Below are positions 16,001 through 56,628 of a stretch of DNA of 64,000 bases, in pieces. Within the stretch, counting starts at the first letter, position 1, and every line of letters begins with the position of its first letter. Position numbers and translations under genes: made by a program. Source of the stretch: Tubulanus polymorphus (lineage: Eukaryota > Nemertea > Palaeonemertea > Tubulaniformes > Tubulanidae); contig NC_134028.1 in the NCBI RefSeq assembly GCF_964204645.1, forward strand, positions 23,906,153-23,970,152, read 5' to 3'. Below the pieces are notes generated by a model. The model was not told the DNA's origin and did no database searches. It was given only the letters and a program-made list of their open reading frames with translations.

Positions 16001-18892
16001 AAGGAGGATCCCGTAACCATCTTTCATCATCATTAAATCCTGAAATTTGAGAATAAATTCTTTTTTCATGAACTAAACATATCACGCTGCTTACAGATCA
16101 GGGAATCCTAAATTCTTAAGGGATTAGCAAATCCGAAATTCCCTTAGCGGTGGCTGTTTCTTCTTAAGGGGTTTGTTGTGCCTCTCATCATCAGCAAGAA
16201 CAAGACACCAGTATTAATTCGGATTCCATGACTTTTCTCTGATTTTCAAGAATTCCTAGATTTTCCCTGCAGGGAAAAAAAAATATAACCAGAATCCCTG
16301 ATCTGAGAAATTATTCCTTCATTTGGGTTGAGATAAGGGAAATTGGTGTATATTTGCTAGTATTATTTCTATGCATATATTTGGATCTTTCATTTGTTGT
16401 GATAAATGAATAATAACTGATTATAAATTCTATTGAAATATTATTCTTAAACCGTCCCTCTTGCCAGTAGGTATAGGGCTTCATCTTGTCTATTATTAGA
16501 GATATTCCAAATACAATGATTTCTTTAACCCCTTCTGTGTGTCTACACCGCAGTGCGGTGTATATATAGGTGATGGACTTTGCTAGTACCCTGCATTGTG
16601 GTGTATTGATGTAATTAGTAATCAGTCTTTATCTCTATTGAAAGATGGCAGCACCTGTCAAACACAGTTGAATATTAGTTACTAATGATACACCGCGCCG
16701 CGGTGTAGAGGCAATATAGCTGTATTCAACACACTGGAGTCGAATTTCTAAACAATTTTCAAATTACCTCTAGCACTTTAGGGTATTAGTTAGTCAGCAC
16801 TGAAAGGGTTAAGTCAATATCAGTAAACTTTACGAGCCAGTGCGTCAATAATTCTTACCGTGTTGTCTCCGACGTACGCCGACGTCGCTCCGAGGTGAAT
16901 TATCGGAGCCGCTTTCGTACAAATCGCTCCGAACGTATGAACGTGAGCCATCACGTCGTGTCGAAACTTGCGTTCCTCGACAGCGGCTCGATCAAAATCG
17001 ATATTATCAACGTTCTCTTCCATTTCTGTTAACTGATCATCGGATATGTCGAGTCCTAAAGTCTGAAATATAAAAATCCAAACAGTCTACACAGCCACAC
17101 AGAGTTAATAAGGAAATGTGTACATCTTTCCTTCCTTGCTCCAGGGCACAGGGACTTGTCACGACTGATAATGGATGAGACCAATGATGGGGGTACCAGT
17201 ATCCCTGCAACTGTATAATAAAATAACAAGGGTGGCAACAAATTTTCAATCTGACAATGACTTCTCCACTTCAATCGACTGTAATTCCAAAAATTCTCAA
17301 CCGATTCACATGAAATAAGCTTTAATACAACCTAGTTGACTTTCTGCTTCGAACGAGCCTACAACCACTACTCTCCGACAATTATCTCACAACGAAATCA
17401 CCTTTTTTTGACGAGAGATAGCTCAAAATGGAGGTGTACCGATTCTATGGTGGACAGCAAAATGGTCGTTTTTTTCAATTCAAACGATGATTTCTATGTG
17501 AGATCTTAGAGAAAACCCCAACAAACCATACATTTTTAAAAACTACGCGGTCATACCTGTACGCTAATCTCATTTATTTGTATAATCCACGCGATGGGTG
17601 AGCTCACAAGCTCAAAATCGAAAATGAGGACGAACACGGCGTTCAACTTGTCATCAACTGGGCGGCCATTAATCACGTGATATCGTAGTAACGGGCTAAA
17701 TATTTCACGCGCATTGATTGGCTTAGAGATTTCGAAAAACATTACAAAATTTATTAAAAGTTCTGTTAATTAATAAAATATCCGTATTATGAAAATGTAG
17801 TGCAACATTCGTCTGAGGGGTGGTATTATTAGCAAATATTTCCTTTTTTCAAGTCTACAGACGTAGACTTGTCGCGGTTCTATTAACATAGCCCGAACCT
17901 GCACGTCACGTGATTAATGGCCGCCAGCGCGATAGTGCGAGGTGACTTTTTCGTATATTTGTTCGATTTTGAGCTTGCGAGCTCACCCATCGCGTGGATT
18001 ATACAAATAAATGAGATAAGCGTACAGGTATGACCGCGTAGTTTTAAAAAATGTATGGTTTGTTGGGGTTATCTCTAAGATTTCACATAGAAATCATCGT
18101 TTGAAGTGAAAAATACGACCATTTTGCTGTCCACCATAGAATCGGTACACCTCCAATTTGAGCTATCTCTCGTCAAAAAACGGTGATTTCGTTGTGAGAT
18201 AATTGTCCTAGAGTGGTGGTTAAAGGCTCGTTGGAAGCAGAAAGTCTTCTAGGTTGTATTAAAGCTTATTTCATGTGAATCGGTTGAGAATTTTTGGAAT
18301 TACAGTCGATTGAAGTGGAGAAGTCATTGTCAGATTGAAAATTTGTTGCCACCCTTGTTTTTTATATTATACAGGGATAGTGGACCTGGTCATTGATATT
18401 GGTTTTATTCATTCACTATCAATTGTGACAAGTCCCTGTGCTCCAGGGCCCATTTTCTAACCTTATTGAAAAAAATAATTTATCTATTATAAGAATTGGC
18501 GAAGTAGCTATGTTGGTACAAGAATGATGCAAAATATCCACCGATGTATAAGTTAACAGAAAATACACAGACTACTCGAAGTGACTTACCTGCTGCGCTT
18601 TAGCTAAATATAACCACAGTTTGCGCCATGTGGAAAACTTCTTCTGGTCGCTGAAGTTGAATGACATTTCCTGACTGGCGTATCGAGCCACCAGCGGTGA
18701 TCTGTACTTGTTGTGATCGGCATTACTGGTATTATCACTGGATGCTGCCGCGTGGACGCTAACTGTACTCACACCCGCCATTGCTGCTGCACCACCATCC
18801 ATGTTGCGCCGGTGTTTGGATGCTTCTTTCTGGCTCAGATAGTTATACACTTTTCTGTCACCCATTTTTGTAGCAGTTGTTATATCCGACAT
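13021..18892 (-). CDS. ADSL: Adenylosuccinate lyase, 12 exons, 534 aa
   Basis: Cytosolic purine enzyme that cleaves SAICAR and adenylosuccinate, releasing fumarate; homotetramer (family knowledge). Exons, in transcript order: 18892-18590, 17062-16859, 16039-15995, 15917-15838, 15271-15100, 14855-14809, 14728-14638, 14559-14490, 14238-14091, 13791-13611, 13366-13190, 13107-13021. All phases join to a TGA. Visible motifs: [11 protein letters not shown] (136-146), GFTHMQPAQL with the conserved His near 209, [10 protein letters not shown], and the fumarase/lyase signature [10 protein letters not shown] at about 339-348 with the catalytic-loop serine. Length is about 50 residues over the human 484; the surplus is an N-terminal low-complexity stretch ([15 protein letters not shown]... 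to HNKYRSPL). Intron 1 holds a 1.3-kb foldback (17141-18447). Head-to-head with MSRB1 2.2 kb away. Confidence 0.97.
14341..14459. repeat. MITE, GGCCAGTTGCTCAAAAGTT family
   Basis: GGGGCTGCAGTTGCTCAAAAG at the left, ACTTTTGAGCAACTGACCCC at the right, with the family interior (GTTAAAGATAACCGGCGGATA). It lies in the ADSL intron between exons 14490-14559 and 14091-14238. Confidence 0.85.
15440..15625 (+). repeat. SINE/LINE-tail-like segment
   Basis: Contains GCCAGGGGGCGCACTAGG and the phrase CCCAAGTTTCATAAAGATCG followed by ACGTCATTAAAAGACAGAGAG. Similar 'AAGTTTCAT-AAGATCG ... AAAGACAGA' phrases occur in tails of many animal SINEs and LINEs. It is in an ADSL intron. Family not identified. Confidence 0.35.
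16085..16310. repeat. Diverged copy of the CAGGGAA-type dispersed repeat
   Basis: TTACAGATCAGGGAATCC at the left and AGAATCCCTGATCTGAG at the right are inverse to one another. Interior words resemble the family at 786-1065. Intronic in ADSL. Confidence 0.4.
17141..18447. mobile_element. 1.3-kb foldback element with long inverted arms in ADSL intron 1
   Basis: The left arm, 17141 to about 17690, is repeated in inverse orientation from about 17880 to 18447. Outer ends read CCAGGGCACAGGGACTTGTC at the left and the complement GACAAGTCCCTGTGCTCCAG at the right. Further in, AAGGGTGGCAACAAATTTTC mirrors GAAAATTTGTTGCCACCCTT, and GATGGGTGAGCTCACAAGC mirrors GCTTGCGAGCTCACCCATC. The loop is about 190 bp. 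No transposase frame is seen, so it is a non-autonomous foldback or very large MITE. The arms look highly similar, which implies recent insertion or ongoing arm correction. Transcribed as part of the ADSL pre-mRNA, it would form a long RNA hairpin. Confidence 0.85.
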
Positions 18893-21125
18893 ACTTTACA
18901 AAAAGTGACACAGAACAAAGCCTTCTACAAGTAGAATATATTTCAATCTTTATTCCGAATACATTCTATGTTACATATCCCCGCGGAGCTCGGATTCGAA
19001 CCCCAGATCACCAACTCTCCCAGATATGCACCTATAGCTCATGTATTGTAGTTTTTAAGACCAGATATATTTTGAAAGTGTGAGAAATATTCATGAATAA
19101 TCATTTTCTCAAACACTAAGGGCTACGGCCTCGTTAAAGTGAGCGTGGGAATTGTTCACGGTCGGGTGAACAGTTTTATCATTTGCAGGCCGTCATGTGC
19201 TGCCCCTATGCATATCGCTGACGGTGAATGTGTGAACTAACTGGTTACTAACCTGCCACAGTAAGACTATAAATTGTATCAGATCAATCGTTCCATTACG
19301 ATATCAATATCGGATCGGGCTCAACCTTTACAAATTTCGTTTTGGCTATCTCCAGTTCACAATTTATATTGAACCGCAGTCCCCACATTAACAAGGCGGT
19401 CGAGATTTGCCGCGTTGACGTAGGGCCCTACGGTTGATTTAGCCTGAAGTAATCCTCGACCGGTAGTAGTTAGTATCCAGTCGCATTCTACCTTTGAGAG
19501 ATTGCCGGTTTATTTCTACGAATTTCATTAATGAATCAATTGCCGTTACGGACCACCGACGTGAAGACTTGTCTTCGAATAAGACACGCATGTCGTAAAG
19601 AATTTTCGTAAAGAACCCGGGAAATTTGAATAGATAATCAACATGCCGATATAGCTACGATCCTAATACATCCACTTTTCGAGGATCTATTAAGATCTTT
19701 ATCGCTACTAAAACAACAGAATTGCTTTATGGTGACAGCTATCCGGGAGCTAGTCAGCAGCCATAATATATCAAAAAAGCACTGGTCATTATAAATTGCG
19801 CGGGGTGTGACAAGTTGGCCAAGTCCACTGGGATCGCTGTTCTATTCAAACCACACATTTCTTAAATAAGTTCATAAATTGGCCATCAGTGACCACCACT
19901 GACCAATTCAAACTTCTCGAACATGAGAACGATATTCCGCGTTAGTGTCAGACTAAAAAGGATTCACCGTTGTAAATTCATAAATCGACCACACTGACCA
20001 ATTCAAACTTCTCGAATATGAGAAAGAGTCACCACTGACAAGTGATAAAAGTCAATATTATCTATTCGAAGAAAACTCATGGTAGAAACAACGATGAAAT
20101 AAACAAAGCAGCTAGGTCAAGCCCAAAGGGCTTCATTTGAGTCAACCTTTGATCTCTCGTGGTGACCGTGTTCTCGGCGTCTTGCGGCCGCATCATAGTG
20201 AGAATGCATGAAATTGCATGAATAGACGATGGACTGACGCCTCGACTGACCGTTAATTGATTTTTGTCATAATATGATCGACGTAATAGATTCATGATAT
20301 TATTGGACATGAACGTGGGAAATGTTACTTAATTTGTTTGTTTTGTAGACTTTTTATGTAGTTTCTATATATGATTTTTAGACATCTAACACGTGATTGC
20401 AACCCTGTATTATTGACTTAGTCATGGAATGACAGGCGCGTCACGTGTCGCGGTTGCAACATACGTAGTCGCAATTATGTTAGTTTTCATCAAGTGAATG
20501 GCTGTCCTTTCTGCAAAACAGGAATGAGGGTTTGAGACAGACCATGAAGACGCCGAATGGCAAGCGCAGAGTTCTGAGGCCCCGACCCCAGGGGCAGGCC
20601 GAGTACGTATCCCTTGGTAGGACTGAACGTGGACCAACATTTTCTTCAGTTTTAGCAATGAAAAGCTTGAAACGAGCCCACGTGTGACTGCTGATGTGGT
20701 TCATCTGGAAGAACCTAGGAACCTTAATCATTTTTATTTTCACGGGTAGGCACAAGGCCGTATCGTCGGTCGGGTGGCACTATTTTGCCGCACTTTCAGG
20801 ACATTATTTGCTCGGGCGAAATCAACGATCCCGGCCGTACGAATTATCCAATCGGGTATTTCCAGTACTGGGTCCAATTATTTCAGATCGTATTTTGGGT
20901 TCTCCGCCAATGATATGTTTTGGGGCAGGGGGCAGCAAGCTAAGCGCCGCGCGCCGCGAGAAATCCGACACAGGGCCACTTTTCTACTGTGGCATGCGAG
21001 TAATAGAGTCAAATTGATGCATTTCAAGGTCGTTGACCAGTTGTTACATCATTCAGTGCCCACGTATCTTAGTCCTTATGTTGTCCCGTGCATTGCATCA
21101 TTCCCGTGTGATAAACAGAAGACTG
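18893..21125. other. Divergent spacer between ADSL and MSRB1
   Basis: The two start codons face away from one another across 2.2 kb, so this interval should contain both promoters. No TATA box or CpG-dense block is obvious. A B-box-like GGGGTTCGAATCC on the minus strand (about 18991-19004) lies in a tRNA-derived-SINE-like patch just upstream of ADSL. Between 19600 and 20050 the phrases GACCAATTCAAACTTCTCGAA and TGAGAA are repeated twice. I see no supported gene here; open frames near 20700-21100 lack recognisable protein content. Confidence 0.4.
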
Positions 21126-21880
21126 ATGTCGTATTGTAGCTGGTCTTACGGTGAAAAATACAAGGACCATTTTGAAAATGGTAAAATTCATGCGTTTTAA
21201 TCTAAATCGATGTATTCTTCTCATTTTCTCTAGTCTGTCAAAATAACGTTCATTATTGACAACTTGTTTTTGTAGGTGTCTATGTATGCGTTAAATGCGA
21301 TCATCCTCTGTTCTCGAGCCAGGTGAAGTATGCACATGATTCAGCGTGGCCGGCATTCACAGAAACTATTCGTGAAGACAGCGTATCAAAATATCCGGAA
21401 CCTGATCAACCCAAAGCGCTCAAGGTAAGATGTGATCATTCGCACATGATTTGAACTGAACACTGTCTCTGGTTCCACATAAACTCCGATCTTCTATTAA
21501 TTGTTGTTTCTCAGTTATCGTGCGGTAAATGTTTTGCTGAATTGGGACATGAATTTCTCTGCGATGGACCGAAGGAAGGTCAGTCGCGTTTCTGAATATT
21601 CAGCGAATCGATGAAATTCCTACCTCATAATAAACCCGGTAAGAAATGATAATATTCTAATTCAATCAACATAAATCAGGGGCCAGTTCCACAGTTAACA
21701 TGTAAGTTAACATGTAACAGTAAGTGGACATGTAACAATAGAATTCCAATTGTCACTATACCTATGTGAACTATGTATAACCAACTTTGAGCAACTGGTC
21801 CCTGGTATCTTGACTATGTTTTCCAATTGAATGATTAACTTATTTAAATTCTTTTTTTGTATTACAGAGAAAAGCAAGTA
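21126..21880 (+). CDS. MSRB1: Methionine-R-sulfoxide reductase B1, selenoprotein with in-frame UGA
   Basis: Reduces methionine-R-sulfoxide in proteins, in cytosol and nucleus (family knowledge). Exons: 21126-21180, 21276-21424, 21515-21638, and probably 21869-21880, ending in a short tail with TAA. Start [19 protein letters not shown] aligns with the family N-terminus. Zinc ligands CVKC fall at residues 23/26 and CGKC at 71/74. GQSRF is followed by TGA at 21593-21595, which is residue 95, then [10 protein letters not shown] continues in frame. In vertebrate MSRB1 the zinc cysteines and Sec are at these same positions, so TGA is read as selenocysteine, not stop. The donor CCCG|GTAAGA at 21639 with the strong acceptor TTTTTTGTATTACAG at 21868 gives a 113-aa protein; retention of that intron would end at TGA 21647-21649 (112 aa). 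I did not find a convincing SECIS by eye. Confidence 0.92.
21679..21805. repeat. MITE, GGCCAGTTGCTCAAAAGTT family, in MSRB1 last intron
   Basis: Left end GGGGCCAGTTCCACAGTTAAC, right end CCAACTTTGAGCAACTGGTCC. The copy is diverged at its left end. It occupies most of the proposed last MSRB1 intron (21639-21868). Confidence 0.65.
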
Positions 21881-21973
21881 AATTGTCGCTAATTGCCTGT
21901 CCAAACTTCACAGCAAGATGCACCTCATTGTAGAGTGTTTTGGAATTTTAATCAGTTTTAACAGTGGTGCATC

Positions 21974-22040
21974 CAGAACATCGAAGTTCCCCCATGGGAT
22001 AAGCAAGCCCTTCAAAATTGGACTCTGGATCCGCCCCTGT
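21974..22040. repeat. Small element with GGATCCAGA-like inverted ends
   Basis: GTGGTGCATCCAGAACATC at the left and GGACTCTGGATCCGCCCCTG at the right are inverse to one another. A similar patch is in unit 2 at about 25021-25098, and isolated GGATCCA-rich pieces occur near 32505-32720. Falls in what would be MSRB1 3' UTR; AATAAA follows at 22060-22065. Confidence 0.4.
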
Positions 22041-22152
22041 TAAGCTTCCAATTGTCTGAATAAAAAGACAGATTTACTATATTCTAATAATTATGCATTA
22101 ATAGGTCCATCTCTGAGATCGATTTAACTTCTGATTTATTCAGTTGATTGAT

Positions 22153-22452
22153 TTAGGGCTCAGAGTGGATCCTTGTAAAGAAGTGTAATAATCTTGTATT
22201 GTTGAAGGATGATGGAAGATTTTTGTTGATTTTACCGAATTGTTGTGGACAAAAGTTCAGCAGTGTGTATGAAAGCTTGCAGCTCAAATCCCTCAACGGG
22301 ATCGCTGTATAATGGATGATTAACTGGCTGAACTTATTGTCCATTTTACAAACGGTGTCGACATCAATGTGAAGATACACAGACGATCTTAAATGTAGGT
22401 CGGTATCAGAAATTGTTTGTAGTTCATAACGTGAAAATTTTCGTTTTGACAT
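22153..22452 (-). CDS. Uncharacterised 99-aa open frame, copy 1 (tentative)
   Basis: Starts MSKRKFSRYELQTISDTD and ends FFTRIHSEP; ATG to stop without interruption. I do not recognise the family and see no signal peptide or membrane segment. The downstream duplicate keeps 75 codons of the same frame open (25211-25438) but has lost one base near its start, so the first 20 or so codons are out of frame there. It could be a small gene, the last exon of a longer minus-strand gene, or a fragment of a mobile element. Confidence 0.3.
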   Translation of the reverse strand: MSKRKFSRYELQTISDTDLHLRSSVYLHIDVDTVCKMDNKFSQLIIHYTAIPLRDLSCKLSYTLLNFCPQQFGKINKNLPSSFNNTRLLHFFTRIHSEP

Positions 22453-23263
22453 CAGTTTGAATTGTGTATAAAAACTTTGGTTTTTATATTAACTCAAACA
22501 AAAATCTGAAAATGGAAATATGTTGAATATTTTTTGTCAGGTTTTGAGCGAATATTTTTACAATACTAACGTCCTTACAGATTCTGTAAGTAGATATTTG
22601 TAAGATATATATGTGTAAATATTTTTGGGTTATACTGGTATTTTTACTGATCTCAATCGGAGTAGTTTTAGCTGTGTGTTCAGGGTATAATATACAGTTG
22701 TTTTTGACACAAATAAGCTTTTTACACAACAGATACATGTACCTGTACATTAGACATTAGTTCTTAGTGATAGCTTTATATTCGTTTGATACAGTATAAT
22801 TGTCAGATCTATGTAATACGCGTTTGCTTAGATTTGTCATACAAAAAGAATTATCTAAGGATATTTACATCTTAGTAACATTCATATATAAAAGGATTAT
22901 ACGATTAACTGTGCACCTAGTCACTGGATGTTTGGTGATAAATCGATAGATAAATGATATTGATGTATTTTACTCGTGTATCAGGGTAAATTGTATTGTA
23001 TTGTATTGTTAATAATGAATTCATTAAACTAACTAACGGGCCTGGGTGATGCAGTTCTTTGATCGAATTTAACCTTACAGTCTTCATTCAAATGGAACTT
23101 GGAGTTAAATGTGAGATTGGGTACCAGCATTTCCATTGAGGAATGGGGTTTTGGGAATTATCGAGTTTAAAGGACTCTATAGTTTCCACTGATAAGAAAT
23201 AAAATCTAGGAACACCATCCTTGCATCCGTGTAACAGCTGCGGTCCCGGTGTTGCATTTGTTA

Positions 23264-23300
23264 TTTGTAGTGTATATATGTATATATATATATATATATG
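23264..23300. repeat. TA microsatellite
   Basis: GTATATATG followed by an uninterrupted TA run. It lies in the segment present only in duplication unit 1. Confidence 0.85.
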
Positions 23301-23612
23301 TTATAGAATTTCTTGTGTGGATTAAATAAAATCATAGATTATAGAAAATGCAGTAAATCATCTTTTTTTCTCATCCATCTTTGTCGAGGATTTGTTTCAG
23401 CGAATGAGGCAGGCCGTGGGATAATTAACTATAGGATTGCCTAAAAGCCACCTGATAAAGTAAAATTGACAGTACCGCAATTCCATTATTAAAGAAATCG
23501 ATCTGATTTACGTGATTAGAGTTCAGCCAATAGGATTTTATCGCATTCCCAGATAAACTTCTCGTATCTCAAATGATCGAAGTTGATCTGCTGGATTCAT
23601 CGCGTCAGCGTC

Positions 23613-24689
23613 ATGAACCGAACTACACAGAGCGTTTTCTGGCTTTGCTCGGCTGCGACAAATCGCAATCTGGCAATAAAGTGGGATTATAAATTCAGCG
23701 TTTTAATGTACCTTTGTTTTTATTTCCCCGCTTGTTTACTCGGATTGTTTTGTAATATATTCACGTTGTTTATTTTACGACTGATGAAAGGTGCCGCGTA
23801 TTATTTGTTAAAGGTTCTCGCTATCGGCGACCTATCGTTCATGCTAGCCGCCTTCGTTATGTACCCGTTAAGAACCGCCTTCATCTACGTTTATTTGGGG
23901 GACGTTGTTTTTCGCATAGACGATTGGCATTTTGGAAAGGTGTTCATCGCTATCGCCTTGCCTCTTTTTTACACATTTCAAATGACCAGGAATTGGCTTG
24001 TTGTTTTGTTAAGCTTCGAACGAGTGATCGTCACGACGTTCCCACTCAAGTCCAGATTATTCTGGACGCGAAAGACTGTAAATCTAAGCATAAAGTTTAT
24101 CCTTTTGGTTTCGATTTCTGGGTATGCTTTGCACTTCGTCCCGTCCGCCATTCCAAAACCATTTTTATGCCGCGAAGAATGGCGGGATGTTCACATCAAT
24201 GGAAAGCCGATAATTCCACATACGACTGCGGACTCAATCCTTCTAGTCGAAATGTACGTCTACACGTTCGGAACTGTTATATTACCGATATTTCTCTTAC
24301 TCGTGATCAACGCGGTTCTCATCTTACAAATAATTGTTGCCAACCGCAATCGCCGAAACAAATTCGCAACAAACGTCGATGCGACGCAGGCGCGGGAACA
24401 GACGAGAGTTCTTAAAATGACGTTCGCTGTAGTCGGGGTTTATGTGTTTTGCGAGGGCCCGGGTTTGTTCGACAGGATGGTCTTATTGGGTTGGTTGAAT
24501 CGAATATCTGGGAAAGCAGATTTTGAGATGGTATTTAGAAAGATCTCGTTAGGGCTTACAATATGCGATTCGTGTGTGAACTTTTTTATTTACTGTTTTA
24601 CCAATGAGAGGTTTAAAGTCAAGGCTTTTGGTTATTTGTCTTGTTTCGTCATTAAAAACCAACCAGTTGTCAATTACGAAAGACAGTAA
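23613..24689 (+). CDS. Class A (rhodopsin-like) GPCR, copy 1, intronless, 358 aa
   Basis: Seven-helix receptor at the plasma membrane; the ligand is unknown, with overall character nearest to invertebrate peptide receptors (inference). The first in-frame ATG gives MNRTTQSVFWLC. Helix landmarks: TM1 FPACLLGLFCNIFTLF with the conserved Asn; TM2 LKVLAIGDLSFMLAAF with the conserved Asp; an ERV triplet at the end of TM3 in place of DRY; TM5 VILPIFLLLVINAVLIL; TM6 AVVGVYVFCEGPG, a variant of FxxCWxP; TM7 CVNFFIYCF, a variant of NPxxY. A Cys lies in the second outer loop (KPFLCREEW), but the usual TM3 partner is not seen. Open throughout, no introns, which suggests retroposed ancestry or an intronless receptor class. 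The neighbour at 26394-27470 is its near-identical tandem copy. Confidence 0.9.
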   Translation: MNRTTQSVFWLCSAATNRNLAIKWDYKFSVLMYLCFYFPACLLGLFCNIFTLFILRLMKGAAYYLLKVLAIGDLSFMLAAFVMYPLRTAFIYVYLGDVVFRIDDWHFGKVFIAIALPLFYTFQMTRNWLVVLLSFERVIVTTFPLKSRLFWTRKTVNLSIKFILLVSISGYALHFVPSAIPKPFLCREEWRDVHINGKPIIPHTTADSILLVEMYVYTFGTVILPIFLLLVINAVLILQIIVANRNRRNKFATNVDATQAREQTRVLKMTFAVVGVYVFCEGPGLFDRMVLLGWLNRISGKADFEMVFRKISLGLTICDSCVNFFIYCFTNERFKVKAFGYLSCFVIKNQPVVNYERQ

Positions 24690-25210
24690 TAAGTCTGATA
24701 CATGCATCCCACCAAAAAGGAATAACTTGAAGGTTCAATAATTGCTCATTGTCACATTCTTAATGTCATGGCAAATTTTCAAACTTATTTGCTCCCGACC
24801 ACTGTGCACGGCCAAATAATATGATGCAGAGCATGTGGGAGGAAGCCCGGACTCGGCACGATATGGTACACTAGATGCTATAGTCACAATTCTGATAATT
24901 CAACTTCGAAATACCACGAAAATTACTCAAGCAAGTAAATTGTCACTAATTGCCTGTCCAAACTTCACAGCAAGATGCACCTCATTGTAGAGTGTTTCGG
25001 AATTTTAATCAGTTTCAACCGTGGCGCTTCCAGAACATCGAAGTTCCCTTTTGGGATAAGCAAGTCCTTCAAAATTGGACTCTGGATCCGCCCCTGTTAA
25101 GCTTCCAATTGTCTGAATGTAAAAGACAGATTTTCTATATTCTAATAATTATGCAGTAATACGCCCATCTCTTAGATCGATTTAATTTCTGATTTCTTCA
25201 GTTGATTGAT

Positions 25211-25505
25211 TTAGGGCTCAGAGTGGATCCTTGTAAAGAAGTGTAATAATCTTGTATTGTTGAAAGATGATGGAAGATTTTTGTTGATTTTACCGAATTG
25301 TTGTGAACAAAAGTTCAGCAGTGTGTATGAAAACTTGCAGCTCAAATCCCTCGACGGGATCGCTGTATAATGGATGATTAACTGGCTGAACTTATTGTCC
25401 ATTTTACAAACGGTGTCGACATCAATGTGAAGATACACAGACGATCTTAAATGTAGGTCGGTATCAGAAATTGTTGTAGTTCATAACATGAAAATTTTTG
25501 TTTTG
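25211..25505 (-). pseudogene. Copy 2 of the uncharacterised open frame, frameshifted at its start
   Basis: From MYLHIDVDTVCKMDNKF to FFTRIHSEP the frame matches the open frame at 22153-22452 with a few substitutions. A one-base loss (TGTTTGT in copy 1, TGTTGT here, near 25476) breaks the N-terminal part. If the frame is a gene, this copy is damaged or starts at the internal Met. Confidence 0.3.
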
Positions 25506-26393
25506 ACATCAGTTTGAATTGTGTATAAAAACTTTGGTTTTTATATTAACTCAAACAAAAATCTGAAAATGGAAATATGTTGAATATTTTTGTCAGGTTT
25601 TGAGCGAATATTTTTACAATACTAACGTCCTTACAGATTCTGTTAGTAGATATTTGTAAAGATATATATGTGTAAATATTTTTGGGTTATACTGGTATTT
25701 TTACTGATCTCAATCGGAGTAGTTTTAGCTCTGTGTTCAGGGTATAATATACGGTCATAATATACAGTTGTAAAATAAGCTATTTACATAACAGACACAT
25801 GTACCTGTACATTAGACATTAGTGATTAGTGATAGCTTTATATTCGTTTGATACAGTATAATTGTCAGATCTACGTAATACGTTTTTGCTTAGATTTGTC
25901 ATAAAAAAGAATTTTCTAAGGATATTTACGTCTTAGTCACATTCATGTATATAACGATTATACGATTAACTGTGCACCTAGTCACCGGGTGTTTGGTGAT
26001 AAATCGATAGATAAATGATATTGATGTATTTTACTGGTGTATCAGGGTAAATTGTATTGTTATAGAATTGTTATAGAAATGTTATAGAATTTCTTGTGCG
26101 GATTGAATAAAATCATAGATTATAGAAAATGCAGTAAATCATCTTTTTTTCTCATCCATCTTTGTCGAGGATTTGTTTCAGCGAATGAGGCAGGCCGTGG
26201 GATAATTAACTATAGGATTGCCTAAAAGCCACCTGATAAAGTAAAATTGACAGTACCGCAATTCCATTATTAAAGAAATCGATCTGATTTACGTGATTAG
26301 AGTTCAGCCAATAGGATTTTCTCGCATTCCCGGATAAACTTCTCGTATCTCTACTGATCGAAGTTGATCTGCTGGATTCATCGCGTCAGCGTC

Positions 26394-27470
26394 ATGAACC
26401 GAACGACACAGAGCCTTTCTTGGCTTTGCTCGGCTGCGACAAATCGCGATCGGGCGATAAAGTGGGATTATAAATTCAGCGTTTTAATGTACCTTTGTTT
26501 TTATTTCCCCGCTTGTTTACTCGGATTGTTTTGTAATATATTCACGTTGTTTATTTTACGAATGATAAAAGGTGCCGCGTATTATTTGTTAAAGGTTCTC
26601 GCTATCGGCGACCTATCGTTCATGCTTGCCGCCTTCGTTAAGTACCCGTTAAGAACCGCCTTCATCTACGTTTATTTGGGGGACGTTGTATTTCGCATAG
26701 ACGATTGGCATTTTGGAAAGGTGTTCATCGCTATCGCCTTGCCTCTTTTTTACACATTTCAAATGACCAGGAATTGGCTTGTTGTTTTGTTAAGCTTCGA
26801 ACGAGTGATCGTCACGACGTTCCCACTCAAGTCCAGATTATTCTGGACGCGAAAGACTGTAAATCTAAGCATAACGTTTATCCTTTTGGTTTCATTTTCT
26901 GGGTATGCTTTGCACTTCGTTCCGTCCGCCATCCCAAAACCATTTTTATGCCGCGAAGAATGGCGGGATGTTCACATCAATGGAAAGCCGATAATTCCAC
27001 CTACGACTGCGGACTCAATCCTTCGATTCGAAATGTACGTCTACACGTTCGGAACTGTTATATTACCGATCTTTCTCTTACTCGTGATCAACGCGGTTCT
27101 CATCTTACAAATAATTGTTGCCAACCGCAATCGCCGAAACAAATTCGCAACAAACGTCGATGCGACGCAGGCGCGCGAACAGACGAGAGTTCTTAAAATG
27201 ACGTTCGCTGTAGTCGGGGTTTATGTGTTTTGCGAGGGCCCGGGTATGTTCGACAGGATGGTCTTATTGGGTTGGTTGAATCGAATATCTGGGAAAGCAG
27301 ATTTTGAGATGGTATTTAGAAAGATCTCGTTAGGGCTTACAATATGCGATTCGTGTGTGAACTTTTTTATTTACTGTTTCACCAATGAGAGGTTTAAAGT
27401 CAAGGCTTTTGGTTATCTGTCTTGTTTCGTCATTAAAAACCAACCAGTTGTCAATTACGAAAGACAGTAA
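26394..27470 (+). CDS. Class A GPCR, copy 2, intronless, 358 aa
   Basis: Same architecture and length as the receptor at 23613-24689; a dozen or so residues differ, for example LRLMKG/LRMIKG in the first loop, FVMYP/FVKYP in TM2, SIKFILLVSIS/SITFILLVSFS in TM4 and ILLVEM/ILRFEM before TM5. All helix motifs (LAIGD, SFERVIV, VFCEGPG, NFFIYCF) are retained, so both copies look functional. Promoter-proximal sequence is duplicated with it, except the 280-bp piece unique to unit 1. Very recent duplication is the simple reading; a merged allele in the assembly is the alternative. Confidence 0.9.
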   Translation: MNRTTQSLSWLCSAATNRDRAIKWDYKFSVLMYLCFYFPACLLGLFCNIFTLFILRMIKGAAYYLLKVLAIGDLSFMLAAFVKYPLRTAFIYVYLGDVVFRIDDWHFGKVFIAIALPLFYTFQMTRNWLVVLLSFERVIVTTFPLKSRLFWTRKTVNLSITFILLVSFSGYALHFVPSAIPKPFLCREEWRDVHINGKPIIPPTTADSILRFEMYVYTFGTVILPIFLLLVINAVLILQIIVANRNRRNKFATNVDATQAREQTRVLKMTFAVVGVYVFCEGPGMFDRMVLLGWLNRISGKADFEMVFRKISLGLTICDSCVNFFIYCFTNERFKVKAFGYLSCFVIKNQPVVNYERQ

Positions 27471-27711
27471 TAAGTCTGATACATGCATCCCACCAAAAAG
27501 GAATAACTTGAAGGTTCAATGATTGCTCATTGTCACATTCTTAATGTCATGGCAAATTTTCAAACTTATTTGCTCCCGACCACTGTGCACGGCCAAATAA
27601 TATGATGCAGAGCATGTGGGAGGAAGCCCGGACTCGTCACGATATGGTACACTAAATGCTATCTAGTCACAATTCTGATAATTCAACTTCGAAATACCAC
27701 GAAAATTACTC

Positions 27712-28155
27712 TAACAAAAAATGCCGAGAGACCAGTCACGCGTAAGCACGAAATACATAAAAATGACGCTTTCATGCGGAGTCGCTGTGCGACTCGCCGG
27801 CTCAGAGGAAATTTCAAGAGCAATCTTTTCATCAAAAAGTACGAAAATAATCTTTAGACTATGAGACTCATGGGCTATGGCCACTACGCCACTGAGCTGC
27901 GTTGTTAATCCGTTCGGAATTTAATGTGCTACGTTGACCAGTCAAGCGTGGTGACCGAGTGTGGCACAGGGAAGCGAGTATAATACAACTGGTTTGAATT
28001 GATTGTCCGGCTCTTAGTCCGCAAGTTGAATTTGAAATTAGTTCAATGTTCATTTTGAAAACTTCCGGGTTTGGTTTGGTGTTACTATCACTGATTAAAT
28101 CAATCAATCAATAGAGATAGTATGGTTTGATACGTAATGACAATGTGAATGAAAG
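27712..28155. other. Spacer between GPCR copy 2 and SLC25A17
   Basis: No gene seen. It should hold the SLC25A17 promoter and 5' UTR. No TATA box or known element is recognised. Confidence 0.35.

Positions 28156-55340: not shown

Positions 55341-56628
<1,288 letters not shown>

Follow-up and report, generated by a model that had tools for sequence, protein, structure and literature searches.

A standard reading of the gene that begins at position 21126 of the window (the whole 64-kb stretch of DNA analysed here) is cut short at codon 95, a TGA. This raises the question of whether the UGA terminates a methionine-R-sulfoxide reductase B1 (MSRB1) or specifies selenocysteine (Sec), as the original prediction proposed. 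On the sequence data presented below, we consider it very probable that the locus encodes a working selenoprotein MSRB1 and that a hairpin at 22255–22334 serves as its SECIS.

Gene structure and family assignment

The gene was reconstructed on the forward strand from four coding exons, located at 21126–21180 (exon 1), 21276–21424 (exon 2), 21515–21638 (exon 3), and 21868–21881 (exon 4, including the TAA stop). Exon 1 was placed by splicing and by alignment to chains of solved structures; exon 2 by splicing, a SelR search, and alignment; exon 3 by splicing and alignment; exon 4 was predicted from the splice consensus. All three introns are intact and of the GT-AG type. The spliced exons form a 342-nt frame of the MSRB1 family, comprising 113 codons and TAA, without frameshifts. 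Its single internal stop is the TGA at 21593–21595, which splicing and alignment place at codon 95 and which we read as a putative Sec codon. Of the extent originally predicted, 21126–21880, the start was retained, whereas the end was moved to 21881, the last base of the spliced frame through TAA.

When codon 95 was rendered as Cys, the read-through product matched 21 chains of solved structures. The best two both carried the name MSRB1: 2kv1 at 159.7 bits (E = 3.2e-46) and 3mao at 143 bits (E = 4.6e-41), the mouse and human proteins, respectively. Comparison with MSRB1 proteins had been suggested together with the original prediction, and both alignments ran ungapped through the UGA. The third-best match, named peptide methionine sulfoxide reductase MsrB, reached 67.1 bits, and those to MSRB3 and MSRB2 reached at most 62.5 bits and 60.9 bits, respectively. 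Judged by these structure-match bit scores, the product is closest to MSRB1 rather than to MSRB2 or MSRB3.

The product is identical to 2kv1 at 71 of 109 residues. Its cysteines lie at positions 4, 23, 26, 71, 74, and 84, and two zinc CxxC motifs are present, one in exon 2 (codons 23/26) and one in exon 3 (codons 71/74), the exon that also carries the UGA. Cys4, the four zinc cysteines, and position 95 all coincide with 2kv1. The in-frame UGA occupies the catalytic position of the MSRB1 alignment, a position that in vertebrates is Sec. The numbering given in the original prediction, for the UGA and the zinc cysteines alike, was thus borne out. In these features the product resembles the vertebrate selenoprotein MSRB1 (SelR/SelX); it differs from the 2kv1 chain in its short C-terminus, KPEKSK, and in having Cys84, which 2kv1 lacks, and not the Cys58 of 2kv1.

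Family-like sequence was also expected beyond the UGA, and 7 of the 10 residues that follow it are the same as in 2kv1. The Pfam SelR score (PF01641, cut-off 24.9 bits) rose from 66.2 bits for the UGA-truncated product to 80.3 bits for the read-through product, a score to which the Cys written at codon 95 contributes, and this rise indicates that the sequence from codon 95 onward carries family signal. The NCBIfam MsrB model (TIGR00357) gave 88.6 bits, which is under its curated cut-off of 113.05.

A genome-wide SelR search returned, besides exon 2 of the window, three exons, all at one place on contig C9 (16008741–16012952, L001–L003). It missed exon 3 of the window, so its listing of exons is not exhaustive, and within that scope no Cys-type copy of MSRB1 was found. 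The C9 locus is MsrB2/3-like and Cys-type. It combines a single core exon with two consecutive, non-identical catalytic end exons, which read RYCINSASL and RYCVNSASL; both of the two carry Cys at the Sec-equivalent place. This pair may represent mutually exclusive exons or two genes.

A candidate SECIS downstream of MSRB1

A SECIS in the MSRB1 mRNA was part of the original prediction, and folding and a pattern scan located a SECIS-like hairpin at 22255–22334 on the forward strand, within the putative 3′ UTR. It comprises helix I, AUGA at 22269–22272, an apical AA at 22286–22287, a 5-bp mini-stem from 22288, and UGAU at 22317–22320. The AUGA lies 674 nt from the UGA in the genome and 445 nt from it with intron 3 removed. 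In the predicted fold of 22250–22344, a long basal stem leads into an open middle where AUGA faces UGAU, and a 6-bp upper helix comes next; the AA is unpaired and is followed by the mini-stem. The folding energy was −28.5 kcal/mol (z = −3.18), and none of 200 shuffles was as stable.

The scan was home-made. Its pattern consisted of AUGA or GUGA, AA or CC, UGA, and two helices, and its thresholds were set after the hairpin was known. On the forward strand of the 64-kb window it returned two rows, the hairpin and a duplicate of it, at −26.0 kcal/mol each, and four weaker rows at two places on the reverse strand (best, −16.1). In 30 dinucleotide shuffles, scanned on the forward strand with an allowed AA distance one base wider at each end than for the window, −26.0 was never reached; the best value was −19.7, and a weaker match occurred in 23 of the 30.

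The hairpin shares AUGA, AA, and UGAU, as well as a 5-bp mini-stem behind the apical AA, with eukaryotic SECIS elements that have an extra apical mini-stem (form 2). It differs from them in its poorly paired lower helix II, where five bases (22273–22277) and seven bases (22310–22316) adjoining the quartet are unpaired in the predicted fold, and in matching no Rfam SECIS family. Rfam searches of 19000–26000 and 22230–22360, with E up to 5 and 10, returned no SECIS family match, and SECIS_1 had no match genome-wide, nor any in 14 prokaryote controls, so the genome-wide result says nothing about absence. The matches that Rfam did return (four in 19000–26000 and seven in 22230–22360) were all below their gathering scores and probably arose by chance; the one with the lowest E value, mir-4922, scored 30 bits against a gathering score of 82. 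A scan of 22000–22600 for bacterial promoters and terminators, a method not meant for animals, gave nothing above shuffles.

The weak lower helix II and the lack of an Rfam match would both fit a selenoprotein MSRB1 whose working SECIS lies elsewhere, the hairpin being something else. The AATAAA at 22059–22064 (forward strand), found by motif search, points the same way: it precedes the hairpin and may act as an alternative poly(A) signal, in which case transcripts could stop short of the candidate. Poly(A)-type motifs also follow the hairpin on the same strand, ATTAAA at 23023, AATAAA at 23198, and ATTAAA at 23321. Against a working SECIS elsewhere, however, the core features of a SECIS follow one another correctly in the hairpin, which is the sole scan match in 21596–23400. 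Moreover, the surrounding 241 bases (22160–22400) were found genome-wide only at two tandem places, which rules out a dispersed repeat. We therefore regard a different location of the SECIS as very unlikely, and the hairpin at 22255–22334 as a strong candidate for the SECIS of MSRB1.

Sec-decoding machinery in the same genome

The assembly (267.8 Mb, 77 contigs) was searched for the Sec machinery that a UGA-encoded MSRB1 had been taken to imply. Two of the 23 tRNA-Sec matches exceeded the cut-off, one on C3 and one on C1, with 81.6 and 81.1 bits. ARAGORN, run on four of the eight fetched tRNA loci, identified the top two as tRNA-Sec with anticodon TCA and the other two as tRNA-Ser. For eEFSec, Pfam euk_SelB_III scored 135.6 bits, and the frame matched a solved selenocysteine-specific elongation factor with E = 8.9e-94. 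Among nine matches in the L7Ae search, two adjacent exons on C12 read as an SBP2-type RNA-binding domain; joined, they matched solved SBP2 with E = 1.3e-34 (next best, 1.6e-6), and we assigned them to SBP2/SBP2L. For SepSecS, eight exon-like matches clustered at a single site on C2, and each exceeded the cut-off. Three of these eight stretches contain a stop, which was taken as intron overrun.

Four exons on C31 matched SPS2, without any of them exceeding the whole-protein cut-off. An upstream exon (L019:3755) reads RLTKFADLKG-stop-GCKVPQ, and the stop is a TGA (LKG-TGA-GC). With Cys written at this TGA, the best two of three matches were chains named Selenide, water dikinase 1, and this SPS2 is itself likely to be a selenoprotein. 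The scan found no SECIS in the approximately 2.5 kb after its coding exons, the end of the coding part having been judged by eye, and a relaxed scan of the same stretch gave two weak SECIS-like sites (−7.1 and −5.2). That no convincing SPS2 SECIS was recovered makes the sensitivity of the scan doubtful. To judge from these matches, the genome encodes a set of Sec-decoding factors: tRNA-Sec (TCA), eEFSec, an SBP2-type domain, SepSecS, and a UGA-type SPS2.

This gene set also bears on whether the UGA of MSRB1 is a real stop, in a truncated or decaying gene that would be either a pseudogene or an assembly error for a Cys (TGC) codon. Standard translation does end at codon 95. However, the 342-nt frame has no other stop or frameshift and its GT-AG introns are intact; family residues go on beyond the UGA, which is aligned to catalytic residue 95; and a SECIS-like hairpin downstream is accompanied by the Sec genes elsewhere in the genome. 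A real stop is, in our judgement, highly improbable. Reading of the UGA as Cys or Trp, or read-through without Sec, has a close to negligible chance in a genome with tRNA-Sec, eEFSec, an SBP2-type domain, and a UGA-type SPS2.

With Sec at codon 95, SBP2/SBP2L would bind the SECIS and bring eEFSec with Sec-tRNA(UCA), and the ribosome would insert Sec at this codon. The two CxxC motifs would hold zinc, and the selenol would attack methionine-R-sulfoxide. Its selenenylsulfide partner would probably be the conserved Cys4, which we take to be the resolving residue of MSRB1. The selenol would then be recycled through the selenenylsulfide and thioredoxin, consistent with the account of MSRB1 in PMC10298544, in which a selenenylsulfide is formed and is reduced by thioredoxin.

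Relation to known SelR genes

A 2012 survey lists SelR as a selenoprotein in all six invertebrates covered, and describes almost all of its invertebrate SECIS elements, apart from the GUGA_AA ones of sponges, as AUGA_AA (PMC3473315). The MSRB1 described here would resemble the Sec-type SelR of sponge, Trichoplax, Nematostella, Lottia, Capitella, and amphioxus in being Sec-encoded and in its AUGA_AA-type SECIS, a likeness drawn from description rather than alignment. It therefore adds to a known gene type and leaves existing knowledge of MSRB1 unchanged. PMC3828610 reports SelR in many animal phyla and, for flatworms, only Cys forms. If Sec is inserted as proposed, the gene, correctly recognized in the original prediction, is a clean case in which standard annotation would yield a truncated product, and its presence marks the genome as keeping Sec decoding.

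Tandem duplication of the 3′ UTR and a GPCR gene

Self-comparison revealed two tandem units on the forward strand. Unit 1 (21872–24934) contains the end of exon 4, the 3′ UTR with the candidate SECIS, and a GPCR gene, and unit 2 (24929–27717) lacks MSRB1 exons 1–3 as well as any counterpart to most of 23012–23290. They are 94.4% identical over 1148 aligned columns and 97.6% identical over 1646. The duplication break lies inside exon 4 of MSRB1, and unit 2 contains the 3′ UTR with its hairpin and a second GPCR copy. The GPCR copies, of the rhodopsin family, lie at 23583–24689 and 26364–27470 (copy 1: 7tm_1, 50.1 bits).

The orphan SECIS-like hairpin of unit 2, identified by the scan and by unit comparison, lies at 25313–25392 on the forward strand. 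The two hairpins differ at 2 of 80 bases (22275 and 22295), neither of which belongs to the quartet, the AA, or the arms predicted to pair. The flanks differ at 53 of 1051 positions. The hairpins do not have significantly fewer differences than this (p = 0.42), and the comparison thus does not show that the SECIS is conserved beyond its surroundings.

Sec-reading of the GPCR was ruled out, as both copies end in TAA. The stop of copy 1 is at 24687–24689, and the second hairpin begins about 620 nt further. This duplicate would be a by-product of the tandem duplication, which also copied the neighbouring GPCR gene. It is unlikely that the duplication supplied the 3′ UTR of GPCR copy 1 with a folded SECIS, creating a natural mRNA with a SECIS and no Sec codon; if it did, such an mRNA could act as a competitor for the Sec machinery or as a sensor of it. 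Through the pair of hairpins, a SECIS that has a selenoprotein gene can be compared, on a small scale, with a natural copy that lacks one. Surplus duplicated SECIS elements are described in PMC3473315. The one after amphioxus Bf.DI_b is alike in being a duplication leftover that is apparently not needed; it lies directly behind its selenoprotein gene, whereas the copy described here lies beyond a GPCR gene.

Two other repeats were observed in the window: an inverted repeat of about 440 bases with 90% identity (17146–17583 and 18001–18441) and a perfect AT dinucleotide repeat of 112.5 copies (55344–55568).
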